In this document: piece by piece, positions 35,528 through 49,772 of the stretch
Layout: the number at the start of each line of letters is the position of its first letter
Numbering within the stretch: position 1 is the stretch's first letter
Assembly: GCF_003173615.1 (NCBI RefSeq)
Contig: NZ_QGNA01000003.1
Span: forward strand, 806,001 to 870,000
Origin: Falsiroseomonas bella
GTDB taxonomy: Bacteria > Pseudomonadota > Alphaproteobacteria > Acetobacterales > Acetobacteraceae
Length of the DNA stretch: 64,000 nt
Direction of reading: 5' to 3'
Program-made: the position numbers and the translations under genes
Notes under the pieces: generated by a model
Databases searched by the model: none
Seen by the model: only the letters and a program-made list of their open reading frames with translations
Told to the model about the DNA's origin: nothing

Positions 35528-36427
35528 CTATGGGCCGTCACTGCTAGGCGGCGCGTCGAGCGATTTCGTGGTCCTGCTCGCTTGCCTCAAGGCAAGGCGG
35601 AACGCATCGGTATCCCGCCGCGAGAACCGAATGTTCTTGAGCGCCCACTCCAATACTCGCTCAGAAATCTCCACATCTTCTTCTGATGATTCAGCCGCAT
35701 CCAGCGGAAACATCCAGTCCACAAAGGCGCCAGCGCGCACTCTGGAGGGCAGTTGTGCTGGCTCTGGCGCCATATCGCGTAGAAACGCGCAGTTTGCAGC
35801 TTGCGCGCTTTCGATTACCCATGTCTGGACTCGCCGATCACCCTTTAAGGCCTGTTCAAGGATCCCAAGAGGGTCAATTGACCAAAATCCGCCTCTCCAA
35901 GTAAGCTCGTACCAATCAATTCTCTCTTCGCGACCATTATCCCAGAGATGGTATGTATATCGCGACCTGCAGAAGCGACGGAAGTGAAATACACAATGAT
36001 CTACCTTGTGAAGATCGTCAGGAAATATTCGATATCCTATTGTGCCATATCTATTGTCGGCAGAACCATATTTTCCTAGACGCGCCAAAAAACTATCTGG
36101 CGACTCGGCAAATTTGTATTCTTCGAGGTAGCTTGGCGGATATTCAAATTTTCTTATCTCTAGATCGGAATTCTGCGCTAAAATGGCTGCGTAGATAGGT
36201 TCGATTTCGTGCCCATAGTTCGCATGGCCGCCGAGAAATAGATTTAGCGCTTTTAGGTATTTTTCGATGGCATGGTTTGCCATCCAGAAAAAATTCTCTC
36301 CAAATCCGGAGAAAAATGACGTTCTTGCCATGATGTAATTTTCGTCGGCAGTCTGCAAGAACATTCTGCTGATAACCCAGTGTTTGAGCGCGCCTACTCG
36401 TTTGTTTTGGTAGGAATTATCGCTCAA
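35528..36427 (-). CDS. HEPN-like protein of unknown function, AT-rich and probably acquired
   Basis: 299 residues from a TTG that overlaps the maeB stop (TTGA), or 278 from the ATG at 36364. Residues 34-80 (MARTSFFSGFGENFFWMANHAIEKYLKALNLFLGG...YGHEIEPIYAAI) look like the first helices of a HEPN domain, a fold found in nucleotidyltransferase-linked toxins and many defence RNases. An R-x5-H (154-160) is in roughly the place of the HEPN RNase motif, but I cannot confirm the alignment. The rest is aromatic-rich with no known motif. Bases 35650-36420 are visibly AT-rich compared with every neighbour, arguing for transfer; the last 30 codons return to host composition. Confidence 0.65.
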   Translation of the reverse strand: MSDNSYQNKRVGALKHWVISRMFLQTADENYIMARTSFFSGFGENFFWMANHAIEKYLKALNLFLGGHANYGHEIEPIYAAILAQNSDLEIRKFEYPPSYLEEYKFAESPDSFLARLGKYGSADNRYGTIGYRIFPDDLHKVDHCVFHFRRFCRSRYTYHLWDNGREERIDWYELTWRGGFWSIDPLGILEQALKGDRRVQTWVIESAQAANCAFLRDMAPEPAQLPSRVRAGAFVDWMFPLDAAESSEEDVEISERVLEWALKNIRFSRRDTDAFRLALRQASRTTKSLDAPPSSDGP

Positions 36428-38697
36428 GCTTTGAGCCCATTCGCCTGCGCAGCCGCCAGCGCGGTCATGTTGACGATGCCGCGCGCCGTCACGGACGGCA
36501 CCAGCACATGGATGGGCTTCGCCATCCCCAGCAGGATCGGCCCCACCTGCAGCCCCTCGGCCGCCGCCTTCAGCAGGTTGAAGGCGATGTTCGCGGCATC
36601 GAGGCCGGGCATCACCAGCAGGTTCGCCGCATCCGTCAGCGTCGAATCGGGCACCGCCCGGTCTCGGATCGCCGGCACCAGCGCCGCATCCGCGTGCATC
36701 TCGCCATCCACCTCGAAATCCGGCCGCTTCGCGCGCAGCAGCTTCAGCGCCGCACGCATCTTCGCCGCCCCCGGCGCGCCCGAGGCGCCGAAGGAGGAAT
36801 GGCTCAGCAGCGCCGCCTTGGGCGCGATGCCGAAGGCGCGGATCTGCTCGGCCGCCAGCAGCGTCATGTCGCAGAGCTGCTCCGGCGTCGGGTCCACCGT
36901 CAGGTGGGTGTCCACGAAGAACAGGTGACCGGTCTGCAGGATCAGCGCCGACAGCGCATAGACCCGCGTGACGTCGGGATTCTTGCCGATCACGTCATAG
37001 GCGTGGTGCCAGTGGCTCAGCCAGTCGCCGGTGCCGCCGCAGAGGCAGGCATCCGCCATTCCGGCCTCCAGCAGCAGCGCCGCCGCGACGGTCGGGCGGT
37101 TGCCGACGCGCCGCGCCGCGGCATCCGGCGGCACGCCGCGCCGCCCGACCTTGCCCTGGTAGAGCGGCACGAGCCTCTCGAAGACGTCGCGATCGGCGAC
37201 AGGGTCGAGAACGCGCACGGATTCGCGAAAGTCCATGCGCAGCCCCATCGCCGCGGCCCGCGCCTCGATCTCGGCCCGCCGCCCGATCAGGATCGGCTCC
37301 GCCAGGCCCTCGTCCAGCACGGTCTGCACCGCGCGCAGCGTCCGCTCGTCCTCGCCCTCGGCGAAGACCACGCGGGCGAGCTGGCGGCGCGCCACCTCGA
37401 AGACCGGGCGCATCAGGTTGCCGGAGCGGAAGACGAACTTCTCGAGGTCGCGGCGATAGGCGGCGAGGTCGGGCACGGGGCGCCGCGCCACGCCGGATTC
37501 CGCCGCGGCCTTCGCCACCGCCGGCGCGATCTCCAGGATCAGCCGCGGGTCGAAGGGCTTCGGGATGATGTAGTCCGCGCCGAAGACCGGCGCCTCCCCG
37601 CCATAGGCGGCGGCGACGACCTCGCTCGCTTCCATGCGCGCGAGTGCGGCGATGGCATCCGCCGCGGCGACCTTCATCGCCTCGTTGATCTCCGTCGCGC
37701 CGGCATCCAGCGCGCCGCGGAAGATGAAGGGGAAGCAGAGGACGTTGTTGACCTGGTTCGGATAGTCGCTGCGCCCGGTGGCCACGATCGCGTCCGGCCG
37801 CGCGGCGCGCACGGCCTCCGGCAGGATCTCGGGCTCCGGATTCGCCAGCGCGAGCACCAGCGGCTTGCGCGCCAGCTTGTGCAGCCACTCGGCCTTCAGC
37901 ACGCGCGGCGCCGAGAGGCCGAGGAAGATGTCCGCCCCCTCCAGTACCTCCTCCAGCGTCCGCGCGGCGGTCTCCTGCGCATAGGCGGCCTTGAAGGGAT
38001 CGGTGTTCGGGCGCCCTTTCCAAACCACGCCGTCGATGTCGCAGATGGTGACGTTCTCGCGCTTCAGCCCCATCGCGACCAGCAGGTCGAGGCAGGCGAT
38101 CGCCGCCGCGCCGCCGCCGGTGTTCACCACCCGGACGTCTTCCAGCCGCTTGCCCTGCAGCAGCAGCCCGTTGCGCACCGCGGCGGCGACGATGATGGCC
38201 GTGCCGTGCTGGTCGTCGTGGAAGACCGGGATCTTCATCCGCGCGCGCAGCGTGCGCTCGATCGCGAAGCACTCCGGCGCCTTGATGTCCTCGAGGTTGA
38301 TCGCGCCGAAGCTGGGCTCGAGCGCGGCCACCGCCTCGATGAAGCGCTCCGGGTCGCGCTCATCCACCTCGAGGTCGATGGAATCGATGCCGGCGAATTT
38401 CTTGAAGAGGACTGCCTTCCCCTCCATCACCGGCTTGCCGGCCAGCGCGCCGATGGCGCCCAGCCCCAGCACCGCCGTGCCGTTCGAGATCACCGCGACG
38501 AGGTTGCCGCGCGTGGTGTAGTCCCAGGCCTTGTCGGGGTCCCTGGCGATCTCCTCGCAGGCGGCGGCGACGCCGGGCGAATAGGCCAGCGCCAGGTCGC
38601 GCTGCGTCGCCATCCGCTTCGTCGGCTCGACCGAGAGTTTCCCCGGCCGCGGCAGGCGGTGATAATCCAACGCCGCCCTGCGGAAATCCTCGTCCAT
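36424..38697 (-). CDS. maeB: NADP-dependent malic enzyme with phosphotransacetylase-like C-terminus
   Basis: 757 residues. Malic enzyme half (1 to about 430): AYSPGVAAACEEI, AVLFKKFAGIDSIDLEV, INLEDIKAPECFAIE, FHDDQHGTAIIVAAA, VVNTGGGAAAIACLDLL and ATGRSDYPNQVNNVLCFPFIFRGALD. The C-terminal half is homologous to phosphate acetyltransferase (VVFAEGEDERTLRAVQ, NRPTVAAALLLEAGMADACLCGG, LLVMPGLDAANIAFNLLK), regulatory in the MaeB class (acetyl-CoA inhibition). It decarboxylates malate to pyruvate, supplying NADPH. Divergent from the GST gene; the HEPN-like gene begins on its stop codon. Confidence 0.96.
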   Translation of the reverse strand: MDEDFRRAALDYHRLPRPGKLSVEPTKRMATQRDLALAYSPGVAAACEEIARDPDKAWDYTTRGNLVAVISNGTAVLGLGAIGALAGKPVMEGKAVLFKKFAGIDSIDLEVDERDPERFIEAVAALEPSFGAINLEDIKAPECFAIERTLRARMKIPVFHDDQHGTAIIVAAAVRNGLLLQGKRLEDVRVVNTGGGAAAIACLDLLVAMGLKRENVTICDIDGVVWKGRPNTDPFKAAYAQETAARTLEEVLEGADIFLGLSAPRVLKAEWLHKLARKPLVLALANPEPEILPEAVRAARPDAIVATGRSDYPNQVNNVLCFPFIFRGALDAGATEINEAMKVAAADAIAALARMEASEVVAAAYGGEAPVFGADYIIPKPFDPRLILEIAPAVAKAAAESGVARRPVPDLAAYRRDLEKFVFRSGNLMRPVFEVARRQLARVVFAEGEDERTLRAVQTVLDEGLAEPILIGRRAEIEARAAAMGLRMDFRESVRVLDPVADRDVFERLVPLYQGKVGRRGVPPDAAARRVGNRPTVAAALLLEAGMADACLCGGTGDWLSHWHHAYDVIGKNPDVTRVYALSALILQTGHLFFVDTHLTVDPTPEQLCDMTLLAAEQIRAFGIAPKAALLSHSSFGASGAPGAAKMRAALKLLRAKRPDFEVDGEMHADAALVPAIRDRAVPDSTLTDAANLLVMPGLDAANIAFNLLKAAAEGLQVGPILLGMAKPIHVLVPSVTARGIVNMTALAAAQANGLKA

Positions 38698-38845: not shown

Positions 38846-39514
38846 ATGAAGCTGCATTTCTTCGACGGCTCGACCACATGCCGCCCGATCGCCATGTTCG
38901 CGATGGAGGCCGGCATCCCGCTGGAGCTTGCGCCCGTCAACCTGTTCGGCGGCGAGCACAAGGGCGAGGCCTATACGCAGGTCAATCCGAACCAGCTCGT
39001 GCCCGTGCTGGAGGAGGATGACGGCCATCGCCTGATCGAATGCTCGGCGATCCTGAAGTACCTGGCCGATGTCGCCGGGCACGCCGCCTGGCCGGCCGAC
39101 AAGCGTGCCCGCGCCGCGGTGAATGCGCGCATGGACTGGTTCAACACCGGCTTCTTGCGCAGCTTCGGCTACGGCTACGCCTATCCGCAACTGCTGCCCT
39201 ACCTCGCCTGGGAGGACAAGGCGATGCAGGCGGCGGCGCTGGCCCGCGCCAAGGCGGAATCGGAGCGGCTCTTCGGCATCCTGAACGACCACATGCTGTC
39301 CGACGCGCATCCCTATCTCGGCGGCGCGGAGCCCGACCTCTCCGACTTCCTCGGCGTCTGCTACGCGACGCTCGGCGAGCTGGTCGGCTGGGATTTCGAT
39401 CGCTGGCCGCGCGTGGCGCGCTGGATCGCGGCGATGAAGGCGCGGCCGTCCTGGAATCCCTGCAATGTCGGCTTCCATGGCTGGCGCGACGCCGTGCGGG
39501 GGCAGGCGGCATGA
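38846..39514 (+). CDS. glutathione S-transferase family protein
   Basis: 222 residues. Thioredoxin-like N-terminal domain KLHFFDGSTTCRPIAMFAMEAGIPLELAPVNL with the conserved cis-Pro segment NPNQLVPVLEEDDGHRLIECSAILKYLAD, then an all-helical C-terminal domain with EPDLSDFLGVCY. Ser/Thr/Cys residues near position 10-12 are candidates for activating glutathione. The substrate is unknown. A purine-rich GGGAGGGAAGGA precedes the ATG. It overlaps the next gene by four bases (ATGA), implying a joint detoxification or degradation task. Confidence 0.88.
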   Translation: MKLHFFDGSTTCRPIAMFAMEAGIPLELAPVNLFGGEHKGEAYTQVNPNQLVPVLEEDDGHRLIECSAILKYLADVAGHAAWPADKRARAAVNARMDWFNTGFLRSFGYGYAYPQLLPYLAWEDKAMQAAALARAKAESERLFGILNDHMLSDAHPYLGGAEPDLSDFLGVCYATLGELVGWDFDRWPRVARWIAAMKARPSWNPCNVGFHGWRDAVRGQAA

Positions 39515-40008
39515 GCAACCCGGCCTCGATGTTCCACCACGTCGCCTATCGCTGCCGCGATTCCGAGGCGACGCGCGCCTTCTACGAGGATTTCCTGGGC
39601 ATGCCGCTGGCGCAGGCCTTCGAGATCAAGCGCACCGCGACGGGCCGCGACGCCTCCGTGCTGCACAGCTTCTACCGGCTGAAGGACGGCAGCTACCTCG
39701 CCTTCTTCGAAGTCCCGGACGGCGCCTTCGACTTCAAGACGCAGCATGATTTCGACCTGCATGTCGCGATGGAGACCACGCCGGAGGAGCTGCAATCCGT
39801 CCTCGCCCGCGCCAAGGCCGCGGGGATGGAGGCGCGCGGCCCCTCCGACCACGGGATCATGCACTCGATCTACCTGCGCGACCCGAACGGCTACGTGGTG
39901 GAACTCGCCGCGAAGACGCCGAGCCACGACGCCGACATGGACCCGGCGACCAACGGCGCGCGGGCGACGCTCGACGCCTGGACGCGGCGGAAGGCGGCGG
40001 CGGCCTGA
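39511..40008 (+). CDS. VOC (glyoxalase/dioxygenase) family protein
   Basis: 165 residues. Two beta-alpha-beta-beta-beta units: MFHHVAYRCRDSEATRAFYEDFLGM with metal-ligand His, and the second half with FDLHVAMETTPEELQSVL...HSIYLRDPNGYVVELAAKTP carrying further His and Glu ligands. The family includes glyoxalase I, extradiol dioxygenases and glutathione transferases such as FosA. Pairing with a GST gene hints at glutathione-dependent chemistry; this is inference from the overlap. Shine-Dalgarno GGGGGCAGGCGGC lies inside the GST end. Confidence 0.87.
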   Translation: MSNPASMFHHVAYRCRDSEATRAFYEDFLGMPLAQAFEIKRTATGRDASVLHSFYRLKDGSYLAFFEVPDGAFDFKTQHDFDLHVAMETTPEELQSVLARAKAAGMEARGPSDHGIMHSIYLRDPNGYVVELAAKTPSHDADMDPATNGARATLDAWTRRKAAAA

Positions 40009-40050: not shown

Positions 40051-42618
40051 CTACCGGGCGCCGGCGGGGCGCAGCGCGGCCAGCGCCGCGGCCGCATCCT
40101 CGCCGCGATAGGGCTTGGCCAGCACCGGGCGCCCGGCGAAGCGCGGCGGCAGCACCAGCCGCGCCTCGTAGCCCGTGGTGAAGACGAAGGGCACGCCCGC
40201 CGCCGCCAGCGCATCGGCCAGCGGGAACACCGCCACCCCGTCGAGGTCGATGTCGAGCAGCGCCGCATCCGGCGGCACCGGCAGGATGGCCGCGGCCGCC
40301 TCCTCGATCCGCGCGACAGGGCCGATCACCTCCGCTCCCTGGGCGCGCAGGGCGGTCTCGAGCTCCATGGCGACCAGCGCGGAATCCTCCACCACCAGCA
40401 CGCGCAGCCCGCGCAGCGCCGGCGCCGCGTCCTGCCCCGCGCCCGGCCCATCGGGCGCCACGCCTGCCTCCGCGACGTGGCGCAGCGGCATCTCGACATG
40501 GAAGAGGATGCCCTCGGGGCGGAAGTCGAGCTTCGTGGTGCCGCCCACCTCATAGGCGAGGCTCCGCTCGATCATCATGCTGCCGAAGCCGCGATGCCCG
40601 GGGGCGGCGACGGGCGGTCCGCCGCTCTCGCGCCATTCCAGCAGCAACTTTCCCTCCGCGACCCGCCAGGAGACCTGCACCCGCCCGGCCGGCACCGAGA
40701 GGGCGCCATGCTTCACCGCATTCGTCGCCAGCTCGTGCAGCGCCAGGCTGACCGCCAGCGCCGCCTTGGGGCGCAGCCTGATGTCCGGCCCGACGATGCC
40801 GATGCGCGGCATGCCGCCCTCGGCGCCGAGATGCGGGTGCAGCTCCTCCTCCACCAGGCTGCGCAGCCCCGCCCCTTCCCAGCGGCTGCGCGACAGCAGC
40901 GAATGCGCCTTCGCCATCGCGCGCAGCCGGCCATGCAGGTCGGTCACGAAGCCGCCGACGGAGCCCGCGTTGCGGCTGGAATGGCGGACCAGCGCCTGGA
41001 TGTTGGCCAGCGTGTTCTTCACGCGATGATCGAGCTCGGCGAGCAGCAGGTCCTGCCGCTGCCTCGCCTCCGCGCGCTCCCGCGCGACCTCGTCCATCCG
41101 GCGCAGCACGACCTCGAGCAGGGAGACGCGCAGCGCCTGCGCCGCCTCCACCTCGATGGCCCGCCACGGCCGGCAGCGCCCGCGCACCGTCTCGCGCCAC
41201 GCGGCGAAGCTGCGGCGGGGCGCCACGCGCGCCCCCCCGCCCGTAACCTCCACCGGCTTGTTCGGGTTGCCCGCCCAGGTCACGGTCTGCACGACCTCGG
41301 GCCGGAACCAGATGATGCAGTCGCGCGGATCGCGCGTGAGGGAGAGCACCAGCGCGCCCGCCGCGACCGCGGCGAACCCGCGCGCCGGCGGAAAGGCCTC
41401 CGCCAGGCTGTCGAGCACCAGCACGCCATCCTCGGCCCGACTGCCGGCCCAGGCCGCGAAGGCGCGCACCTGCTCCTCCTCCGGCACGCGGCCGAGCGCG
41501 GCGTAGTTGCCTTCGATCAGCAGCGCGACGCCGGCGCTGTCCATGAAGTCGAGCAGGTTCGGGCGCTGGCGGATCAGGCCGAGCGCCAGGTTGTCCTCCC
41601 GCGCCATGACGCGGACGAGCCCTTCGTGCACGCGGTGCATGCGCTCGGCATGGGCGTGGTCCTCGGCGCGCTGCTTCGCCTCGATCTGCAGCGAGAACAT
41701 CCGCGCGAAGAGCTCGCAGGCGCCGCGGATCGCGACCGGCACGCGATGCGGCGTGCGGTGGTGGCAGGCGATCAGCCCCCACAGACGCCCGCCCTGCACG
41801 ATGGAGAGCGACATGGAGGCCCGCACGCCCATGTTCGCCAGGTAGTCCAGATGCAGCGGCGAGACGGAGCGCAGCGCGCAGCACGACAGATCCGTGGGTC
41901 GCCCGGTCAGCGGGGAGACGGGGGGCACCAGCGGCGCCGGGACGTAGCGCGCATCCGGGATGATGCGCAGCCAGTTCTGCACATAGAGCTCGCGCGCCTG
42001 CCTCGGCACGTCGCTCGCCGGGTAGTGCAGGCCGAGATAGGCGCCGATGCCCGCATCCCGCGCCTCCGCGATCACCTCGCCGCTGTCGTCGGGGGCGAAG
42101 CGGTAGACCATGACGCGGTCGAAGCCGGTGACGCGGCGGACCTCGTCGGCGGCGGCCTGGCAGAAGGCGCCGAGCGTACCCGCCTCGCCGAGCCGCGCGA
42201 TCATCGACAGCACGACCGGCAGCGGCCCCGGCCGCACCGCGCCGCCCGCGCCCTCCAGCGGCTCGATCTCCAGGATGATGCCGGCCGGCGTGCGGTGCGC
42301 GACGATATCGAGCACTCCACCACCGGGGAGGGCCGCCTCCAGCGCGCGACCGGCGGTCGGCGCCGGCTCCTCGGGCAGGGAGGCGATCTCGGCCAGCACC
42401 GCCGCCGGCAGCAGGTCGGCGGCCGCCTGCCCGGCGGCGGGCGCCGCGCCGGCGCCGAGCAGGCCGCCATCGCCGGCTGCCTGCAGCACCTCGAGGCTCT
42501 CGGGATGCAGCACCAGCAGCAGGCCATGCGGCTGGACGGAGCCGGGAATGTGGATCGGCTCGCGGTCGCAGTTGGAAAGGTCGGCCTCGCCAAAGGCAGG
42601 CAGCGGGAGCGCGCTCAT
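40051..42618 (-). CDS. bphP: bacteriophytochrome hybrid sensor kinase (PAS-GAF-PHY-HWE-REC)
   Basis: 855 residues. The N-terminal LSNCDREPIHIPGSVQPHG has Cys17, which binds biliverdin. The GAF domain shows GFDRVMVYRF, YLGLHYPASDVPRQARELY (PASDIP motif) and SVSPLHLDYLANMGVRASMSLSIV, with the chromophore histidines in LIACHHRTPHRVP. PHY domain next. The kinase is of the HWE type: phospho-acceptor His in ELDHRVKNTLANIQALV, N-box LHELATNAVKHGALS and W-x-E in LLLEWRESGG. The C-terminal receiver has VVEDSALVAM, Asp in LLDIDLDG and LAKPYRG. A red/far-red light sensor that autophosphorylates and can pass phosphate within or between proteins. No haem oxygenase gene is in the window to make biliverdin. 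Confidence 0.94.
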   Translation of the reverse strand: MSALPLPAFGEADLSNCDREPIHIPGSVQPHGLLLVLHPESLEVLQAAGDGGLLGAGAAPAAGQAAADLLPAAVLAEIASLPEEPAPTAGRALEAALPGGGVLDIVAHRTPAGIILEIEPLEGAGGAVRPGPLPVVLSMIARLGEAGTLGAFCQAAADEVRRVTGFDRVMVYRFAPDDSGEVIAEARDAGIGAYLGLHYPASDVPRQARELYVQNWLRIIPDARYVPAPLVPPVSPLTGRPTDLSCCALRSVSPLHLDYLANMGVRASMSLSIVQGGRLWGLIACHHRTPHRVPVAIRGACELFARMFSLQIEAKQRAEDHAHAERMHRVHEGLVRVMAREDNLALGLIRQRPNLLDFMDSAGVALLIEGNYAALGRVPEEEQVRAFAAWAGSRAEDGVLVLDSLAEAFPPARGFAAVAAGALVLSLTRDPRDCIIWFRPEVVQTVTWAGNPNKPVEVTGGGARVAPRRSFAAWRETVRGRCRPWRAIEVEAAQALRVSLLEVVLRRMDEVARERAEARQRQDLLLAELDHRVKNTLANIQALVRHSSRNAGSVGGFVTDLHGRLRAMAKAHSLLSRSRWEGAGLRSLVEEELHPHLGAEGGMPRIGIVGPDIRLRPKAALAVSLALHELATNAVKHGALSVPAGRVQVSWRVAEGKLLLEWRESGGPPVAAPGHRGFGSMMIERSLAYEVGGTTKLDFRPEGILFHVEMPLRHVAEAGVAPDGPGAGQDAAPALRGLRVLVVEDSALVAMELETALRAQGAEVIGPVARIEEAAAAILPVPPDAALLDIDLDGVAVFPLADALAAAGVPFVFTTGYEARLVLPPRFAGRPVLAKPYRGEDAAAALAALRPAGAR

Positions 42619-42776
42619 CGGCAGGCGATCCGGCGAAGCGGCGGCGGCCGGCGCGCGAGTGTCGTGAGGCGTATCACCGGTTCCGGACCGAGGTGTTGAA
42701 CATTGCGTGCGGCGCACCCTAGCCCGGGCCGCGGACGCTTCCTTCCTCGCGGCCGCTCACAAGACAGCGATGCGCC

Positions 42777-45215
42777 TCAGCGCTCGGCGAGGGCGAGCCG
42801 CACCGCCGCCGCCGCCTCGTCCCCACGGCAGGGCTTGGGCAGCACCGCGGCGCGGGCGTAGCGCGGCGGCAGCACCAGGCGCGGCTCGTAGCCGGTGGTG
42901 AAGACGATCGGCACGCCGCGCTCCGTCAGCATGTCCGCCACCGGGAAGACCGGCTCGCCATCGAGGTCGATGTCGAGCAGCGCGGCGTCCGGCTGGCGCT
43001 CGGCGATCAGCGCCTCGGCCTCCGCGATACGCGCCACGGGCCCGAGCACCTCGGCGCCCGCGGCCTCCAGGCCATCGGCCATCTGCATGGCGACGAGGAC
43101 GGAATCCTCCGCCAGCAGCACCAGCGCCCCCTCCAGCCCGCGGGCCGGCTGCGCCGCCGGCGCGGCGCCGGGCTCCGTCAGCGCGGCGAGCAGGATCGCG
43201 GCATGCCAGCGCAGCCCCTCCGACGCGAAGGCGAGCCGGCTGTCCGCGCCGAGTTCCTCGCCGAGGCCCCGCTCGATCGCGAGGCAGCCGAAACCGCGGC
43301 GGGCGGGCGGCGCGACGCGCGGGCCGCCCTGCTCCGTCCAGTCCAGCCGCAGCCAGCCATCCTCCACCCTCCAGCCGAGCCGCACCCGGCCCGAGGGCGC
43401 GGAAAGCGCGCCATGCTTGGCGGCGTTGGTGGCCATCTCGTGCAGGGCGAGGCCGAGGGCGAGGGCCGCGCGGGGCCGCAGGCGCAGCTCCGGCCCCTCG
43501 ATCACGATGCAGCCGGCCGGGCCGTCCGCGAGATGCGTGCGCAGCTGCTCCTGCGCCAGGCCGCGCAGCGAGACGCCGTCCCACCGCCCGAGCGCCGCCA
43601 GCCCATGCGCCTGCGCCCAGGCGCGCAGCCGTCCGAGCAGCCGCGCCAGCAGGCCCTCGAGCCCCGGCGCGGCGGCCTCGCCGTGACGCGCCAGGGATTG
43701 CAGGTTCGCCAGCAGCGTCTCCACGCGATGGTCGAGCTCGCCGAGGCGCATCTCCTGGCGCTGGCGCGCGCCGGCGCGGGCCTGAGCGACGTCTTCCGTG
43801 CGGTGCAGCACGTCGTCGAGCAGCGCGATGCGCAGCGCCTCGGCTGCCTCGATCTCCATCGCCGTCCAGCGACGGCCGGGCGCGGGGCCGTCGCGGAACC
43901 ACAGCACCGCCTCGCCATCCGGCAGGGCGAGCCGGAGCGCGCCGGCCTCGGCCAGCGCCGGCTCCGCCTTCGGCCAGCCCTCGGCGAGCGCATCGAGCGC
44001 CACCACGCCAGCGCCGCCGGCCAGCGCATCGCGGAGTCCCCGCAACACCTGCTCGGCCGGCACGGGGCCTTCGCTGTGCAGCGCGTCGCCCAGGAACAGG
44101 GCGACGCCGCTGCCGGGCAGGAAGGCGGCGAGCGCCGGCAGCGCGGCGCGCAGCCCCTGCCCCGGCGCCGCGGCCAGCGCCGCCATCAGCCGATGCTCGG
44201 CCGCGACGAGGCGCGTGGCCTCGACATCGTCCTCGGCCTGCGCGGCGGCTTCGAGCTGGAGCGAGAAGAGCTGGGCGAAGAGCTCGCAGGCCGCGCGCAT
44301 CGCGACCGGCAGGTGGCGCGGCCGGTCCGAATGGCAGGCGAAGACGCCCCAGAGCCGTCCCTCCCGCACCACGGAGAGCGACAGCGCGGCGCGCACGCCC
44401 TGGCGCGCAAGCTCCTCAAGCTGCGCCTGCGGGGCGCTGCGCAGGCGCGAGAGCGAAAGATCCGTCTGCGCGCCGGTCAACGGCGACAGCGGCGGCTCGA
44501 GCGGGGCCGGGGCGCGGGTGGAGTCCGGCACCAAGCGGGACCAGCCCTGCAGCGCGCTCTCCCGCGCCTCCCGCGGGGCATCGGCGGCGGGGTCGCGCGG
44601 CGGCGGGCCGGGGGGTGTGCCGGGGGCGCGGGCCTCGGCCACCAGTTCACTGCCGCCCTTTGACGTGAAGCGGTGCAGCGCGACCCGGTCGAAGCCCGAG
44701 AACCCCAGCAATTCTTGCGCGGCGGCCTGGCAGAGGGCGGCGCGGCCGGGGACCGCTTCGAGGCGCGCCGCGATGGCGGCAAGCGCGGCCAGGGGCGCGG
44801 GCTCCGTCGCGGCGGGAGCGGCGGGGAAGCGCTCGATCTCCAGCAGCACACCGGCCTCGCCATGCTGGACGGTGAGGTCGAGCCGGGTGCCGTCGGGCAG
44901 CGCGATGCCGGCGGCGTGCAGCTCGGCCTCCGGCGGCTGGTCGAGCAGGCGGGCGATCTCGGCGCGCGTCTCCGGCGGGACGAGGGCGGCGAGCGGCAGG
45001 CCGGGCCGCGCCTCCGCCCCCAGCAGCGCGCCGTCTCCGGCCAGTTGCAGCACGTCGAGCGTGGCGGGATGCAGAACGAGGAGCAGGGCGTGCGGGTGGA
45101 TGCCGGCGGGGAGGTGCTCCTGGTCGAGCAGCCCGGCGCCGCCGCCGGTCATCGCCGGGGCGGTTGGCGCCGGCGCGGCGAGCGCGCTCAGCGGCAGGCT
45201 CGTATCAGGGGACAT
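42777..45215 (-). CDS. degenerate bacteriophytochrome-like hybrid kinase, paralogue of the downstream gene
   Basis: 812 residues with the same PAS-GAF-PHY-HWE-REC order. The expected chromophore cysteine is missing: the N-terminus reads LLDQEHLPAGIHPHALLLVLHP where the paralogue has SNCDREPIHIPGSVQPHG. PASDVP has become PAADAP and CHH has become CHS. The kinase H-box is HRVETLLANLQ (K-N changed to E-T), yet the phospho-His, N-box (LHEMATNAAKHGALS), W-x-E (LDWTEQGG) and the receiver residues (LLAEDS, LLDIDLDG, LPKP) stay. It probably no longer senses light through biliverdin and may bind another ligand or modulate its neighbour. It is upstream of the intact copy on the same strand. Confidence 0.85.
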   Translation of the reverse strand: MSPDTSLPLSALAAPAPTAPAMTGGGAGLLDQEHLPAGIHPHALLLVLHPATLDVLQLAGDGALLGAEARPGLPLAALVPPETRAEIARLLDQPPEAELHAAGIALPDGTRLDLTVQHGEAGVLLEIERFPAAPAATEPAPLAALAAIAARLEAVPGRAALCQAAAQELLGFSGFDRVALHRFTSKGGSELVAEARAPGTPPGPPPRDPAADAPREARESALQGWSRLVPDSTRAPAPLEPPLSPLTGAQTDLSLSRLRSAPQAQLEELARQGVRAALSLSVVREGRLWGVFACHSDRPRHLPVAMRAACELFAQLFSLQLEAAAQAEDDVEATRLVAAEHRLMAALAAAPGQGLRAALPALAAFLPGSGVALFLGDALHSEGPVPAEQVLRGLRDALAGGAGVVALDALAEGWPKAEPALAEAGALRLALPDGEAVLWFRDGPAPGRRWTAMEIEAAEALRIALLDDVLHRTEDVAQARAGARQRQEMRLGELDHRVETLLANLQSLARHGEAAAPGLEGLLARLLGRLRAWAQAHGLAALGRWDGVSLRGLAQEQLRTHLADGPAGCIVIEGPELRLRPRAALALGLALHEMATNAAKHGALSAPSGRVRLGWRVEDGWLRLDWTEQGGPRVAPPARRGFGCLAIERGLGEELGADSRLAFASEGLRWHAAILLAALTEPGAAPAAQPARGLEGALVLLAEDSVLVAMQMADGLEAAGAEVLGPVARIAEAEALIAERQPDAALLDIDLDGEPVFPVADMLTERGVPIVFTTGYEPRLVLPPRYARAAVLPKPCRGDEAAAAVRLALAER

Positions 45216-45348: not shown

Positions 45349-45434
45349 TGGTGCGGTCGAGAAGATTCGAACTTCCACGGGGTTGCCCCCACCAGCACCT
45401 CAAGCTGGCGCGTCTACCATTCCGCCACGACCGC
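45349..45434 (-). tRNA. tRNA-Leu (anticodon GAG)
   Basis: 86 bases including an encoded CCA end. Acceptor stem GCGGTCG pairs with CGACCGC; D-arm GGCGGAATGGTAGACGC; anticodon arm CCAGC-TTGAGGT-GCTGG with GAG at 34-36; a class II long variable arm with GGGG-CAA-CCCC; T-arm with GTTCGAATC. Reads CUC and CUU codons. It stands between the degenerate phytochrome gene and lipB with no sign of an integrated element at its 3' end. Confidence 0.95.
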
Positions 45435-45463: not shown

Positions 45464-46141
45464 ATGACATTCGACCCGACAACGCCCCCGGAAACAGCCT
45501 CCTCCGTGGCGTTCCGCATCACCGAGGGGCTGACGCCCTATGCCGAGGCGATGGCCGCGATGGAGGCGCGCGTGGCGGCGATCCGCGCCGGGGAGGCGGA
45601 GGAGCTGGTGTGGCTGGTGGAGCATCCGCCGACCTACACGGCCGGCACCTCCGCGCGGCCGGACGACCTGCTGGAGCGGCGATTCCCGGTGTTCGCGGCG
45701 GGCCGAGGGGGGCAATGGACCTATCATGGGCCGGGGCAGCGGACGGGATACGTGATGCTGGACCTGACCCGGCCGCACGGGTCCGTGCGGGCGCGGGACG
45801 TGCGGGAGTATGTGCATGGCCTGGAGGAATGGCTGATCCGGGCGCTGGACCGGTTCAACATCCGCGGCGAGCGCCGCGAGGGGCGCGTGGGCATCTGGGT
45901 GGCGGACCGGGCGCGCGGGACCGAGGACAAGATCGGCGCCTTGGGCGTGCGGGTGACGCGCTGGGTGAGCTGGCACGGGGTGGCGCTGAACGTGGACCCG
46001 GACCTGTCGCATTTCGGCGGCATCGTGCCCTGCGGGGTGGCGGAGCATGGGGTGACGAGCCTGCACCGGCTGGGCGTTCTGGCGACGATGGAAGAGGCCG
46101 ACGCGGCGCTGATGGCGGCGTGGGCGGAGGTTTTCGGGTAG
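45464..46141 (+). CDS. lipB: octanoyl-[ACP]:protein N-octanoyltransferase
   Basis: 225 residues. It transfers octanoyl groups from acyl carrier protein to lipoyl domains of 2-oxoacid dehydrogenases and GcvH. Motifs: [40 protein letters not shown], and the catalytic pair Lys156 ([11 protein letters not shown]) and Cys190 ([14 protein letters not shown]). Monocistronic, on the opposite strand from the adjacent tRNA gene. Confidence 0.95.
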
Positions 46142-46312: not shown

Positions 46313-46513
46313 GAGAGCGAGCGGCGGATTCGCGGGGGTGAAAGAGCGGCGGCCCGCGCCGGGTGGCGCGGACTGAATTCCTAGGATAGCTGGTCGGTGC
46401 GGGGGAAGCCAGCGGAAAACGCGGGAACCCCCGCCTCTGGCCTGGGCGCTGGCGGGCGGTGCAATCCGTTGGCAAAGACTGCCAATGTCGGTGGCGCGCG
46501 GAGAAAAGGCGGC

Positions 46514-46750
46514 ATGGCGACAATGACTGTCTCGCTTCCTGACGAGATGAAGGCCTGGGTCGAGGAGCAGGCGCGCTCCGGCCGCCATGCGAATGCGAGC
46601 GACCACGTCCGCGATCTGATCCGGCGCGACCAGGAACGCGTCGCCTTCCGCCAGTTGATCGAGGACGGGATGAACAGCGGCGTCAGTGACATCAGCTCGG
46701 ACGAGATGCTGGTGGAGATGCGCAAGCGCGCCGCGACATATCACAGGTGA
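46514..46750 (+). CDS. ParD-like type II antitoxin (ribbon-helix-helix), without a toxin
   Basis: 78 residues. MATMTVSLPDEMKAWVEEQARSGRHANASDHVRDLIRRDQER is a ParD/CC2985-type ribbon-helix-helix DNA-binding domain; the C-terminal half (ISSDEMLVEMRKRAATYHR) would wrap the toxin. A ParE toxin gene normally overlaps the antitoxin stop, but only 57 bases separate this stop from the converging restriction gene. So it is an orphan, perhaps a remnant left after loss of the toxin, or a solitary regulator. Confidence 0.82.
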   Translation: MATMTVSLPDEMKAWVEEQARSGRHANASDHVRDLIRRDQERVAFRQLIEDGMNSGVSDISSDEMLVEMRKRAATYHR

Positions 46751-46807: not shown

Positions 46808-49672
46808 TCAACCTGTACGGGCGCGGTTGAGGGCGAGGAGGGCGGCGAGGGCGTCGTCGGTGGCGATATCCTCGGGCCAGCCATAGGCGGCGGCGACGGC
46901 GCGATCGAGATCGGCATGCAGGGCATCGAGCCAGGCGCCCTCCCCCGTGCCGCGCCGGTTGTAGAGGTTGGTCAGCGTGCGGGTCTTGAGCTGCTTTGCC
47001 GCGGCGGCGTCGCGTGGGATTTTTCGCGGCGGGAGATGCGGCAGCACATCGGGCACCTCCTCCACCCATTCGGGCGGGTTGAGCCAGCGGTCGCGCGCGG
47101 CGACGAGGGCGCGGGCGGCGTCGGCGATGCGGATGGCCCGCGCATCGGCGGCGTAGGAGGCGGCGGGGAGATTCGGGGTGAGGCCTTCGGGGAAGGCGAA
47201 GGTCTCGAAGGTGGTGGTGGGGGTGTAGCGCGGGCGATCCTCCAGCGAGGTGCCGAGGCGGAGCGCCCAGGCTTCGTGGAAGCGGCTGTGCAGGATGCCG
47301 AAGCTGGTGTCGTCGTCGCGGGCGATGGCCACCAGATTCTTGTCTGGAGTCACTGCTTTCGGGAGCCAGACAAAGACCCGGTGCTTCGAGACTTCTGGCG
47401 TGGCGATGAACCGCGCGAGGCCGTCTAGGCGCTGAAACAGTGCAGGTGCGCGACGCGCCAGCAGCCACCAGTGGCGACGCTCGGACGGGGAGCCAGATTT
47501 CGATCTAGCGGGCTGCACGTGCAGCACAACGTGCGCGAAAGGCTGAACAAAGAATGTGGCCTGCGTTTCCGGCATATCGCCAAAATTTATGATCCAGCGG
47601 TTCAGATGGCGGCCAGTGACATCCTCGCCGTTGTACCAAGGCGAAAGAACTTCGGCGTTGCTCCGGCCATTGGGATTGCTGGGTGCAGCGAGCCACGCAT
47701 GTGCGAGGTCGCCATCGATGTTGAACGCACCCTTCTTTGTGACGCCGCTGGACGCGATCGCACGGTTATTCGCGAGCGGCTGCGCCGTCGTCAGGTCGAA
47801 GTCGCCCGCGCTCAAATCAGCAAAGATCGTAGTGACGGTATAGCCGTCTAGGCTTGGTGAGCCAGCAGAATTCCCGTCGCCGAAGCAGACTATCGACACT
47901 CGCACCGCTGCACCGTCGAGCGTCCAGGGCTCGTCGGACCACGCATCGAAGATGACGCCTTGCTCGGTGATGCGATCCAGCACGCGGCGGTTGGCGCCGC
48001 CGCGGATGCTGTTGGTCGCGACGAGCCCCGCACGCGTCGTCGCGCCGTTCTCGATCTGCTCGCGGGCCTTCTCGAACCAATAGCAGACGAAGTCCGCAGC
48101 GCCCGGCACGCGACCGGCATACGCCTTGCGCAGCCGCGCCGTGTAGTCCTCGCCGAGTGCGCCGATCATCGCCTTGTCGCCGATGAAGGGCGGGTTGCCG
48201 ACGATGGCGTCGGCCTTCGGCCAATCCGCCACGCTGCCATCCGGGTTCAGCACGGCGTCGCGGCATTCGATGGTGTTCAGCGGCTTGAGGATGGGGTTGC
48301 CGGGCTGGGGCATGGCGTTGCGGCGCGCCCATTGGATGGCGCCGATCCAGACGGAGATGCGGGCCAGTTCCGCCGCATAGGCGTTCAGCTCGATGCCCAG
48401 CAGCACTTCCGGGCCGACTTCCGGCAATTGGCGTTGCAGGCCGAGCGCCTCCGACTCCAGCCCCGCGCGCAGCTCGATATCCTTGATCGCCATTAGCGCG
48501 AGATAGAGAAAATTTCCGCTGCCGCAGGCGGGGTCGAGCACGCGGTAGGCGCGCAGACGGTCGAGGAAGGCGCGGTAGATCGGCGTCGCCTGGGTGCGGG
48601 CGCGCTCGCGCCGCCGCGCGATCTCCGCGGGCGCGACGCCGGATTTCGGCACGGCAGCCATGATCGCCTCGATCCGCGCGCGCGCCTCCGCCCATTCGCG
48701 TTCCAGCGGGCGGATGATGACGGGGTTGATGATGAGGGAAATCTTCTCGCGGTCGGTGTAGTGGGCGCCGAGCTGGCCGCGTTTTTCGGGATCGAGCCCA
48801 CGCTCGAACAGGGTGCCGAAGATGGTCGGGTCGATCTCGCCCCAGTCGAGGCGCGCGGCCTCCTGCACCGCGGCGATGTCCTGGGCGGTCAGCGGCAGGG
48901 CGGTGTCGTCGTCGAACAGGCCGCCGTTGAACCAGTCGATCTCGACGAAATCGAGCGTGCCGCCGGGGTCCTTCATGGCGCGGAACAGGCGGCCGGCGAG
49001 ATCGGGGAAGCGCGCGGGGTTCTTGCGGGTGGTGGCGAGCAGGCTGTCGAGCACGCCGGCGGGCAGCAGGCCGACATCGTCGGCAAACAGGCAGAAGACG
49101 ATCCGGTTGACGAAATGCGCGACCAATTGCGGATCGTGGCCGCGCGCGCGCAGGCGGGCGGCGAGTTCGGCGAATTTGCCGGCGGCGTCCTCGGTGATGG
49201 CCTGGCGGGTGCGTTCGGGGCGGAGGCGGTCGGGATCGGAGAGGACGGCCTTGAGCAGGGCGCGGCGCCGGGGGTCGCGCAGCTCCTCCAGCGTGACGGT
49301 GTGGGTCTCGCTGACGGCGTTGGTCCAGTTGGTGCGGATGATGATGGTCTCCATGTCGGAGACCACGAGGAGCGGCGGGTTTTCCAGCGCGAGGGCGTAT
49401 TGCTGGAGCTGGACGAAGGCGGCGCGCAGGTCCTTGCGCTTGCCCTTGTATTCCCAGCCGAAATGGCCGCGCTTCCACACATCGGCCCAGCCGCGCTGGC
49501 CGGTGGTCTTGTTGGCGCCGCGTTCGAAGCAGAACCATTCGCCCTTGGGGTCGGCGGCGGCCGGGGTGGGTTCGTCGAGCAGGGCGCAGAGGTCGTTGAA
49601 GTGGGACTGCGAGGCCTGGTCCTCGCGCAGGGCGCTGCCCTGCCACTTGGCAATGAATTGTTCCGGCGTCAT
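46808..49672 (-). CDS. MmeI-like type IIG/IIL restriction-modification protein
   Basis: 954 residues in one polypeptide. N-terminal nuclease region WFCFERGANKTTGQRGWADVWKRGHFGWEYKGKRKD (about 46-81; WEYKGK holds the E-x-K part of the nuclease site). A helical spacer follows, then an N6-adenine methyltransferase: motif X LGAHYTDREKI, motif I VLDPACGSGNFLYLAL and motif IV IVGNPPFIGD. Last comes a target-recognition region (about 570-745) and a C-terminal helical part. Such enzymes cut and methylate DNA from one binding site, and specificity changes with the recognition domain. Bases 47440-47940, the recognition section, are less GC-rich than the rest. No separate specificity or nuclease gene is needed. 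Confidence 0.88.
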   Translation of the reverse strand: MTPEQFIAKWQGSALREDQASQSHFNDLCALLDEPTPAAADPKGEWFCFERGANKTTGQRGWADVWKRGHFGWEYKGKRKDLRAAFVQLQQYALALENPPLLVVSDMETIIIRTNWTNAVSETHTVTLEELRDPRRRALLKAVLSDPDRLRPERTRQAITEDAAGKFAELAARLRARGHDPQLVAHFVNRIVFCLFADDVGLLPAGVLDSLLATTRKNPARFPDLAGRLFRAMKDPGGTLDFVEIDWFNGGLFDDDTALPLTAQDIAAVQEAARLDWGEIDPTIFGTLFERGLDPEKRGQLGAHYTDREKISLIINPVIIRPLEREWAEARARIEAIMAAVPKSGVAPAEIARRRERARTQATPIYRAFLDRLRAYRVLDPACGSGNFLYLALMAIKDIELRAGLESEALGLQRQLPEVGPEVLLGIELNAYAAELARISVWIGAIQWARRNAMPQPGNPILKPLNTIECRDAVLNPDGSVADWPKADAIVGNPPFIGDKAMIGALGEDYTARLRKAYAGRVPGAADFVCYWFEKAREQIENGATTRAGLVATNSIRGGANRRVLDRITEQGVIFDAWSDEPWTLDGAAVRVSIVCFGDGNSAGSPSLDGYTVTTIFADLSAGDFDLTTAQPLANNRAIASSGVTKKGAFNIDGDLAHAWLAAPSNPNGRSNAEVLSPWYNGEDVTGRHLNRWIINFGDMPETQATFFVQPFAHVVLHVQPARSKSGSPSERRHWWLLARRAPALFQRLDGLARFIATPEVSKHRVFVWLPKAVTPDKNLVAIARDDDTSFGILHSRFHEAWALRLGTSLEDRPRYTPTTTFETFAFPEGLTPNLPAASYAADARAIRIADAARALVAARDRWLNPPEWVEEVPDVLPHLPPRKIPRDAAAAKQLKTRTLTNLYNRRGTGEGAWLDALHADLDRAVAAAYGWPEDIATDDALAALLALNRARTG

Positions 49673-49711
49673 GCGCGCATGGTCCCGCGCGCGGGGTTGA
49701 AGGTCCATAGG

Positions 49712-49772
49712 CGGATGGAGGGGTCCGGGGACGATCATCGTCCCCGGCGGGGGTTCGGGGGCAGCGCCCCCG
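49712..49772. repeat. double-hairpin intergenic repeat, copy 1
   Basis: Two hairpins: GGGGACGA-TCA-TCGTCCCC and CGGGGGC-AGC-GCCCCCG, joined by GGCGGGGGTT and preceded by CGGATGGAGGGG. The sequence is almost identical to 52457-52518 (one substitution and one extra T). It lies after the stop of the acyl-CoA dehydrogenase-like gene and before the restriction gene start, so it may end the former's transcript. Confidence 0.7.

Follow-up and report, generated by a model that had tools for sequence, protein, structure and literature searches.

The window analysed here, 64,000 nucleotides of contig C8 of genome G000, carries two minus-strand genes in head-to-tail order. The upstream gene encodes P0001 (42777..45215, 812 aa), a blind phytochrome-derived hybrid kinase, and the downstream gene P0002 (40051..42618, 855 aa), a canonical bacteriophytochrome. 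The P0002 frame stays open further upstream, up to 888 aa from a GTG at 42717, the ATG at 42618 being the likely start. The genes are separated by 159 bp, a gap in which a consensus search found neither promoters nor terminators, consensus matching alone being uninformative. The initial annotation of this DNA had described two PAS-GAF-PHY-HWE-REC proteins on one strand, and the open reading frames, strands and architectures all agree with that description. The two proteins are 50% identical in a protein alignment. In P0001 the Pfam GAF, PHY and HWE_HK profiles match above cut-off, PAS_2 and Response_reg below it.

Several neighbours were named by sequence recognition, among them the two that served as synteny anchors, a lipB-like gene (45464..46141, plus strand) and a maeB-like malic enzyme gene (36424..38697, minus strand). 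A tRNA-Leu(gag) gene (45349..45434, minus strand) lies between lipB and P0001, an arrangement also found in the congener G302, and GST-like and VOC/glyoxalase-like genes occupy 38846..40008 on the plus strand. A gene for an MmeI-like restriction-modification protein with MmeI_N, helicase spacer, methyltransferase and TRD domains (46808-49738, minus strand) sits inserted between lipB and an acyl-CoA dehydrogenase-like gene; it has no match at the corresponding place in G302, and a ParD/RHH-type antitoxin-like frame (46436-46747, plus strand) adjoins it. On the other side, a gene for a HEPN-domain protein (PF05168; 35528-36427, minus strand) adjoins maeB, as does, in G304, the gene for a 37% identical relative.

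Judged by its sequence, P0002 is a bacteriophytochrome hybrid kinase of the usual kind. Cys17, PASDVP and HRVKN had been reported for the downstream copy and are all present, the bilin cysteine lying in LSNCDREP, along with SPLHLDY, WAG and PRRSF, and among solved structures its closest matches are photosensory modules of bacteriophytochromes. Residue 461, at the PRXSF-8 position, is Thr instead of Gly. Gly at this position is commoner in bathy phytochromes (PMC12362586), so that the resting state of P0002 cannot be called bathy by this mark.

Sensor and output modules of P0001

By profile and by predicted fold, P0001 keeps a PAS-GAF-PHY module. The PAS domain (residues 34-128; 44832..45116, minus strand), preceded by a segment without the bilin cysteine, is followed by the GAF domain (residues 160-324; 44244..44738, minus strand) and by the core of the PHY domain (residues 340-442; 43890..44198, minus strand), a Pfam PHY match where model pLDDT is mostly about 90. 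GAF and PHY exceed their Pfam cut-offs; PAS_2 reaches 14.9 bits against a cut-off of 21.4, and passes the cut-off in P0003, the G302 orthologue. AlphaFold, given a 30-sequence alignment, models the P0001 sensor with confidence (mean pLDDT 86, pTM 0.82); in the model the PAS, GAF and PHY domains are intact, and a loop of about 10 residues between strand 436-441 and helix 452-479 replaces the tongue. In a structure search with this model, the best PDB hits were phytochromes in 50 cases out of 50; bacteriophytochromes were the closest, and the engineered tongue-less DrBphP module 8bor was among the best hits.

The upstream copy had been described as lacking the cysteine (LLDQEHLPAG in that region) and as having PAADAP and HRVET, all of which is confirmed in P0001. 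The aligned residues indicate, however, that P0001 is blinder than first described, the loss extending past the cysteine to pocket residues and to the whole tongue. Tyr176 is replaced by H181, His260 by Q265, Tyr263 by E268 and Met267 by Q272, and the motif around His260, SPLHLDY in P0002, reads PQAQLEE in P0001; equivalents of Asp207, Arg222, Arg254 and His290 are kept. P0003 is also without the cysteine, Tyr176, His260, Tyr263, Met267 and the tongue, and has lost Asp207 too, the equivalents of Arg222, Arg254 and His290 being retained by both proteins. Within the tested pocket set of Tyr176, Asp207, His260 and Tyr263, only Asp207 is kept, and in P0001 alone of the blind pair. By comparison, the cysteine, Asp207, His260, Met267, Arg222, Arg254, His290 and the tongue are kept in 28/28 other aligned photosensory modules, and Tyr176 and Tyr263 in 27/28 each (Phe in the remaining one). 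The reported change from CHH to CHS does exist but hits no key residue, since the His290 equivalent is kept; the pocket histidine that was lost is His260.

The initial inventory of losses was incomplete in that it overlooked the largest change, the deletion of the PHY tongue (site at residues 442-450; 43866..43892, minus strand), by which about 37 residues are missing relative to P0002. The gap opens immediately behind WFR and closes at the conserved W that begins the spine helix; WAG and PRxSF fall within it, and the Pfam PHY match to P0001 covers only the first 114 of 183 positions. A tongue with PRxSF is deleted in both blind proteins and present in all other aligned modules. Binding of biliverdin via another cysteine had been raised as a finding that would contradict blindness, and an alternative bilin cysteine is ruled out at the known sites: neither P0001 nor P0003 has an attachment cysteine at the N-terminal site or at the GAF site of the plant/cyanobacterial type, whereas the bilin cysteine is present in 28/28 others. 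The cysteines of P0001 are six in total, and four are common to P0001 and P0003 (162/160, 294/289, 310/305 and 796/793), the first three of these being found in P0002 as well.

The PHY-to-DHp spine, from W450 to the phospho-His496 (43728..43868, minus strand), measures 47 residues, and the distance from the conserved Trp to the phospho-His is exactly 47 residues in 29/29 family members, the blind pair included. The HWE histidine-kinase (dimerisation/phosphoacceptor) domain, with H496 in HRVET (43491..43739, minus strand), matches profile PF07536 with 49.2 bits against a cut-off of 22.8. The claim that all kinase and receiver residues are retained stands for His496, the N-box Asn, WxE, GFG, Asp748, Thr774 and Lys794, and fails for the Asn of HRxxN. 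P0001 also keeps the N-box His, which is Gln in P0003. The HRxxN Asn is invariant in 27/27 canonical relatives, and is Thr in P0001 and Ala in P0003 (HRVKA). Residues at H+4 of other histidine kinases bear on phosphatase activity, and by analogy the loss of this Asn suggests that phosphatase activity is altered. HRxxN is the motif named for the HWE kinase family (PMC5898713).

The receiver domain (42780..43127, minus strand) has Asp748, Thr774, Lys794 and an acidic pair (ED), and thereby all the residues of the FAT GUY type; its FTTGY signature is common to P0001 and the canonical relatives. Pfam PF00072 stays below cut-off on this domain, as it does on P0002. The P0001 receiver is 85% identical to that of P0003 and 61% to that of P0002. 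At the protein level it is the most conserved and most constrained part of the blind protein, so that on sequence grounds the receiver interface is probably the main output of P0001.

Origin of the blind lineage and selection on it

A maximum-likelihood tree was built from 29 full-length proteins. The blind clade has P0002 as its sister there (support 99/97), and the two together nest inside a clade of canonical kinases that come from other genera; the stem branch of the blind pair has a length of 0.94, as against 0.24 for P0002. By its place in this tree P0001 is a diverged tandem duplicate of P0002, in line with the initial proposal that a gene was duplicated and one copy then lost its chromophore site. 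Recent gene conversion between the tandem copies was rejected: the tracts are old (70-81% identical), and the P0001 receiver is nearer to P0003 (85%) than to P0002 (61%).

P0003, 65% identical over its full length, is the only P0001 orthologue found. There is none in the other 13 of the 15 species of the genus, and beyond the genus none was found in 398 family genomes, in an order sample that largely overlaps this family set, in a genome-contig scan or among plasmids. The evidence on the blind lineage is therefore that of two orthologues in 2/15 species. The expectation of a conserved pair failed, as the one orthologue found in the family genome search, that of G302, has no P0002 at its locus. 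The order there is maeB, blind gene, tRNA-Leu, lipB, syntenic with G000 except that the G000 stretch with the GST-like, VOC-like and P0002 genes has gone, leaving 35 bp between the aligned flanks. Since the GST and VOC genes adjoin maeB in four other species (G300, G301, G303 and G306), their absence from G302 is a deletion, and I infer that P0002 was lost in the same event. Outside this locus, the G302 protein most like P0002 is a kinase from a different clade, with 43% identity. Judged by gene content, then, the blind gene outlived its tandem photoreceptor in G302, and partnership with P0002 is not obligatory for P0001, since the orthologue occurs without P0002 or any close relative of it elsewhere.

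Two side observations concern the same genomes. In G302, maeB now begins about 35 bp past the stop of the blind gene and on the same strand (L051:10350-10390), and with this spacing may be transcribed from the promoter of the blind gene. G302 carries other phytochromes. In G000 a second true phytochrome, a 1170-aa open frame, is followed by a heme oxygenase gene (G000:C1:1567053-1569772; L052, L144), and the arrangement recurs on contig C6 of G302, so that biliverdin is probably made in both.

Selection was assessed with codon-model programs written for this analysis. The frames of P0001 and P0003 are both open, and the indels between them, about 8-12 depending on the alignment, are all in frame. 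In the pairwise model, omega for the blind pair is 0.118 and omega=1 is rejected (2dlnL 280); lipB and maeB give 0.076 and 0.039. These omegas are approximate, as synonymous sites are near saturation (dS 1.85) in GC-rich DNA. Compared with maeB and lipB (0.6-0.8), the blind pair has a dS 2-3 times as high; that of the receiver part, 0.76, is like that of the neighbours. The branch model, fitted to seven sequences of which two are blind, gives for the sensor a background omega of 0.077 and a value of 1.3-1.6 on the post-duplication stem (2dlnL 13.0 versus one ratio), statistically indistinguishable from 1. On the later blind branches the sensor omega is 0.081, and fixing it at 1 costs a 2dlnL of about 175. 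On the stem, omega does not shift significantly in either the kinase or the receiver, and on both blind branches it is 0.08-0.13 in all three modules, omega=1 being strongly rejected. These values fit a single episode in which the sensor alone changed, freely or adaptively, before constraint returned, and they fit a change of input, not decay. The purifying selection expected of a functional blind copy is thus borne out by both types of model.

Possible functions of P0001

The explanation that I favour, with a probability of roughly 0.55, is that P0001 arose as a tandem duplicate of P0002, ceased to sense light and afterwards persisted as an HWE histidine kinase that works independently of light, both the loss and the kinase activity being read from residues. 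The remodelled PAS-GAF-PHY module would serve as a scaffold for the dimer or as a chemical sensor and would control the kinase via the unchanged 47-residue spine, either fixing the level of activity or answering a new signal, and phosphate from His496 would go to the protein's own receiver Asp748, to a stand-alone regulator, or to both. Through the tongue, chromophore site and output are coupled in both directions, and weaker coupling narrows the range of regulation (PMC9630206). Removal of tongue and pigment site is consistent with light control being cut and the dimeric scaffold spared. Against this explanation count two losses that might point to a weakened kinase, that of the HRxxN Asn in both blind proteins and that of the N-box His in the G302 protein. 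A more specific proposal, possible but held only tentatively, is that a single post-duplication burst, in which pigment and tongue were lost, made P0001 responsive to some new signal other than light (a small molecule, redox state or temperature) that acts via the old bilin pocket and the spine to drive the HWE-receiver output.

The adjacency of P0001 and P0002 on one strand, their like architecture, spine length and receiver type, and the conservation of the receiver above all other parts of the blind protein would also suit a protein that heterodimerises or exchanges phosphate with P0002, for instance as a phosphate sink, and so tunes photoreceptor output. The 159-bp gap between the genes speaks against this, as does G302, where the blind gene persists after the deletion of P0002 and nothing close to P0002 occurs elsewhere, although the blind protein may there be partnered with another phytochrome; such a role is rather unlikely. 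It is distinctly improbable that P0001 binds biliverdin or another tetrapyrrole non-covalently and remains a photoreceptor, if a poor one. The cysteine, the pocket residues and the tongue carry attachment, protonation, photoconversion and signalling, and the cysteine, Tyr176, His260, Tyr263, Met267 and the tongue are gone in both blind proteins, Asp207 in G302 as well; what speaks for binding is that both keep equivalents of the propionate-contacting Arg222 and Arg254 and of the pocket His290, that GAF and PAS are under purifying selection, and that a heme oxygenase lies beside another phytochrome in both genomes. Decay, finally, would account for the accelerated stem, the absence from 13/15 species and the loss of HRxxN, and an open frame alone is weak evidence in GC-rich DNA, where stops are rare. 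A recently inactivated copy heading for loss is nevertheless a very improbable reading of omegas of 0.08-0.13 on both blind branches in three modules, of indels that are in frame only, and of a receiver that stayed 85% identical while the sensor diverged. The initial annotation had named frameshifts in sister strains as a sign of a decaying pseudogene; the G302 gene has none, and a pseudogene is rejected by the pairwise and branch codon models alike.

Relation to known systems

Natural intermediates in the gain or loss of light sensing by phytochromes are scarce, which makes these transitions, including signalling without bilin and tongue, hard to study. One genome with a receptor and its blinded duplicate, and a sister species with the blinded one alone, allow a photoreceptor and its light-independent descendant to be compared directly. 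RpBphP4, like P0001, is a bacteriophytochrome that turned from light sensing after loss of the chromophore site, in its case to become a redox sensor; it reportedly retains the tongue in its phytochrome module and differs from strain to strain within one species, whereas P0001 has lost the tongue as well and owes its blind form to a tandem duplication. That a phytochrome can lose light sensing is already known from RpBphP4, and the evolution of a bacteriophytochrome from light to redox sensor is announced in the title of Vuillet et al. 2007 (reference 28 of PMC6879726). As far as the searches reach, what appears to be new is a complete natural loss of the tongue under renewed constraint, the sister photoreceptor alongside, a species with the blind copy only, and a selection shift placed on the tree. 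The engineered DrBphP photosensory module 8bor has its tongue removed, as in P0001, but is a laboratory construct, of which P0001 is the natural counterpart, with pocket residues lost too and back under selection.

Agp2/AtBphP2 and AvBphP2, bathy/HWE bacteriophytochromes with a C-terminal receiver (PMC11021371), share the phytochrome module, HWE kinase and response regulator with both proteins; P0002 fits this type fully, whereas P0001, without the cysteine, pocket residues and tongue, is not expected to photoswitch. A link of P0001 to the general stress response is unsupported, as a NepR search gave only sub-threshold matches in G000 and none in G302. The Paks/SdrG system of the alphaproteobacterial general stress response (PMC5898713) combines, as P0001 does, an HWE/HisKA2 kinase with an F-T/A-T-G-Y receiver; in P0001, by contrast, the receiver is fused to the kinase and HRxxN is broken.
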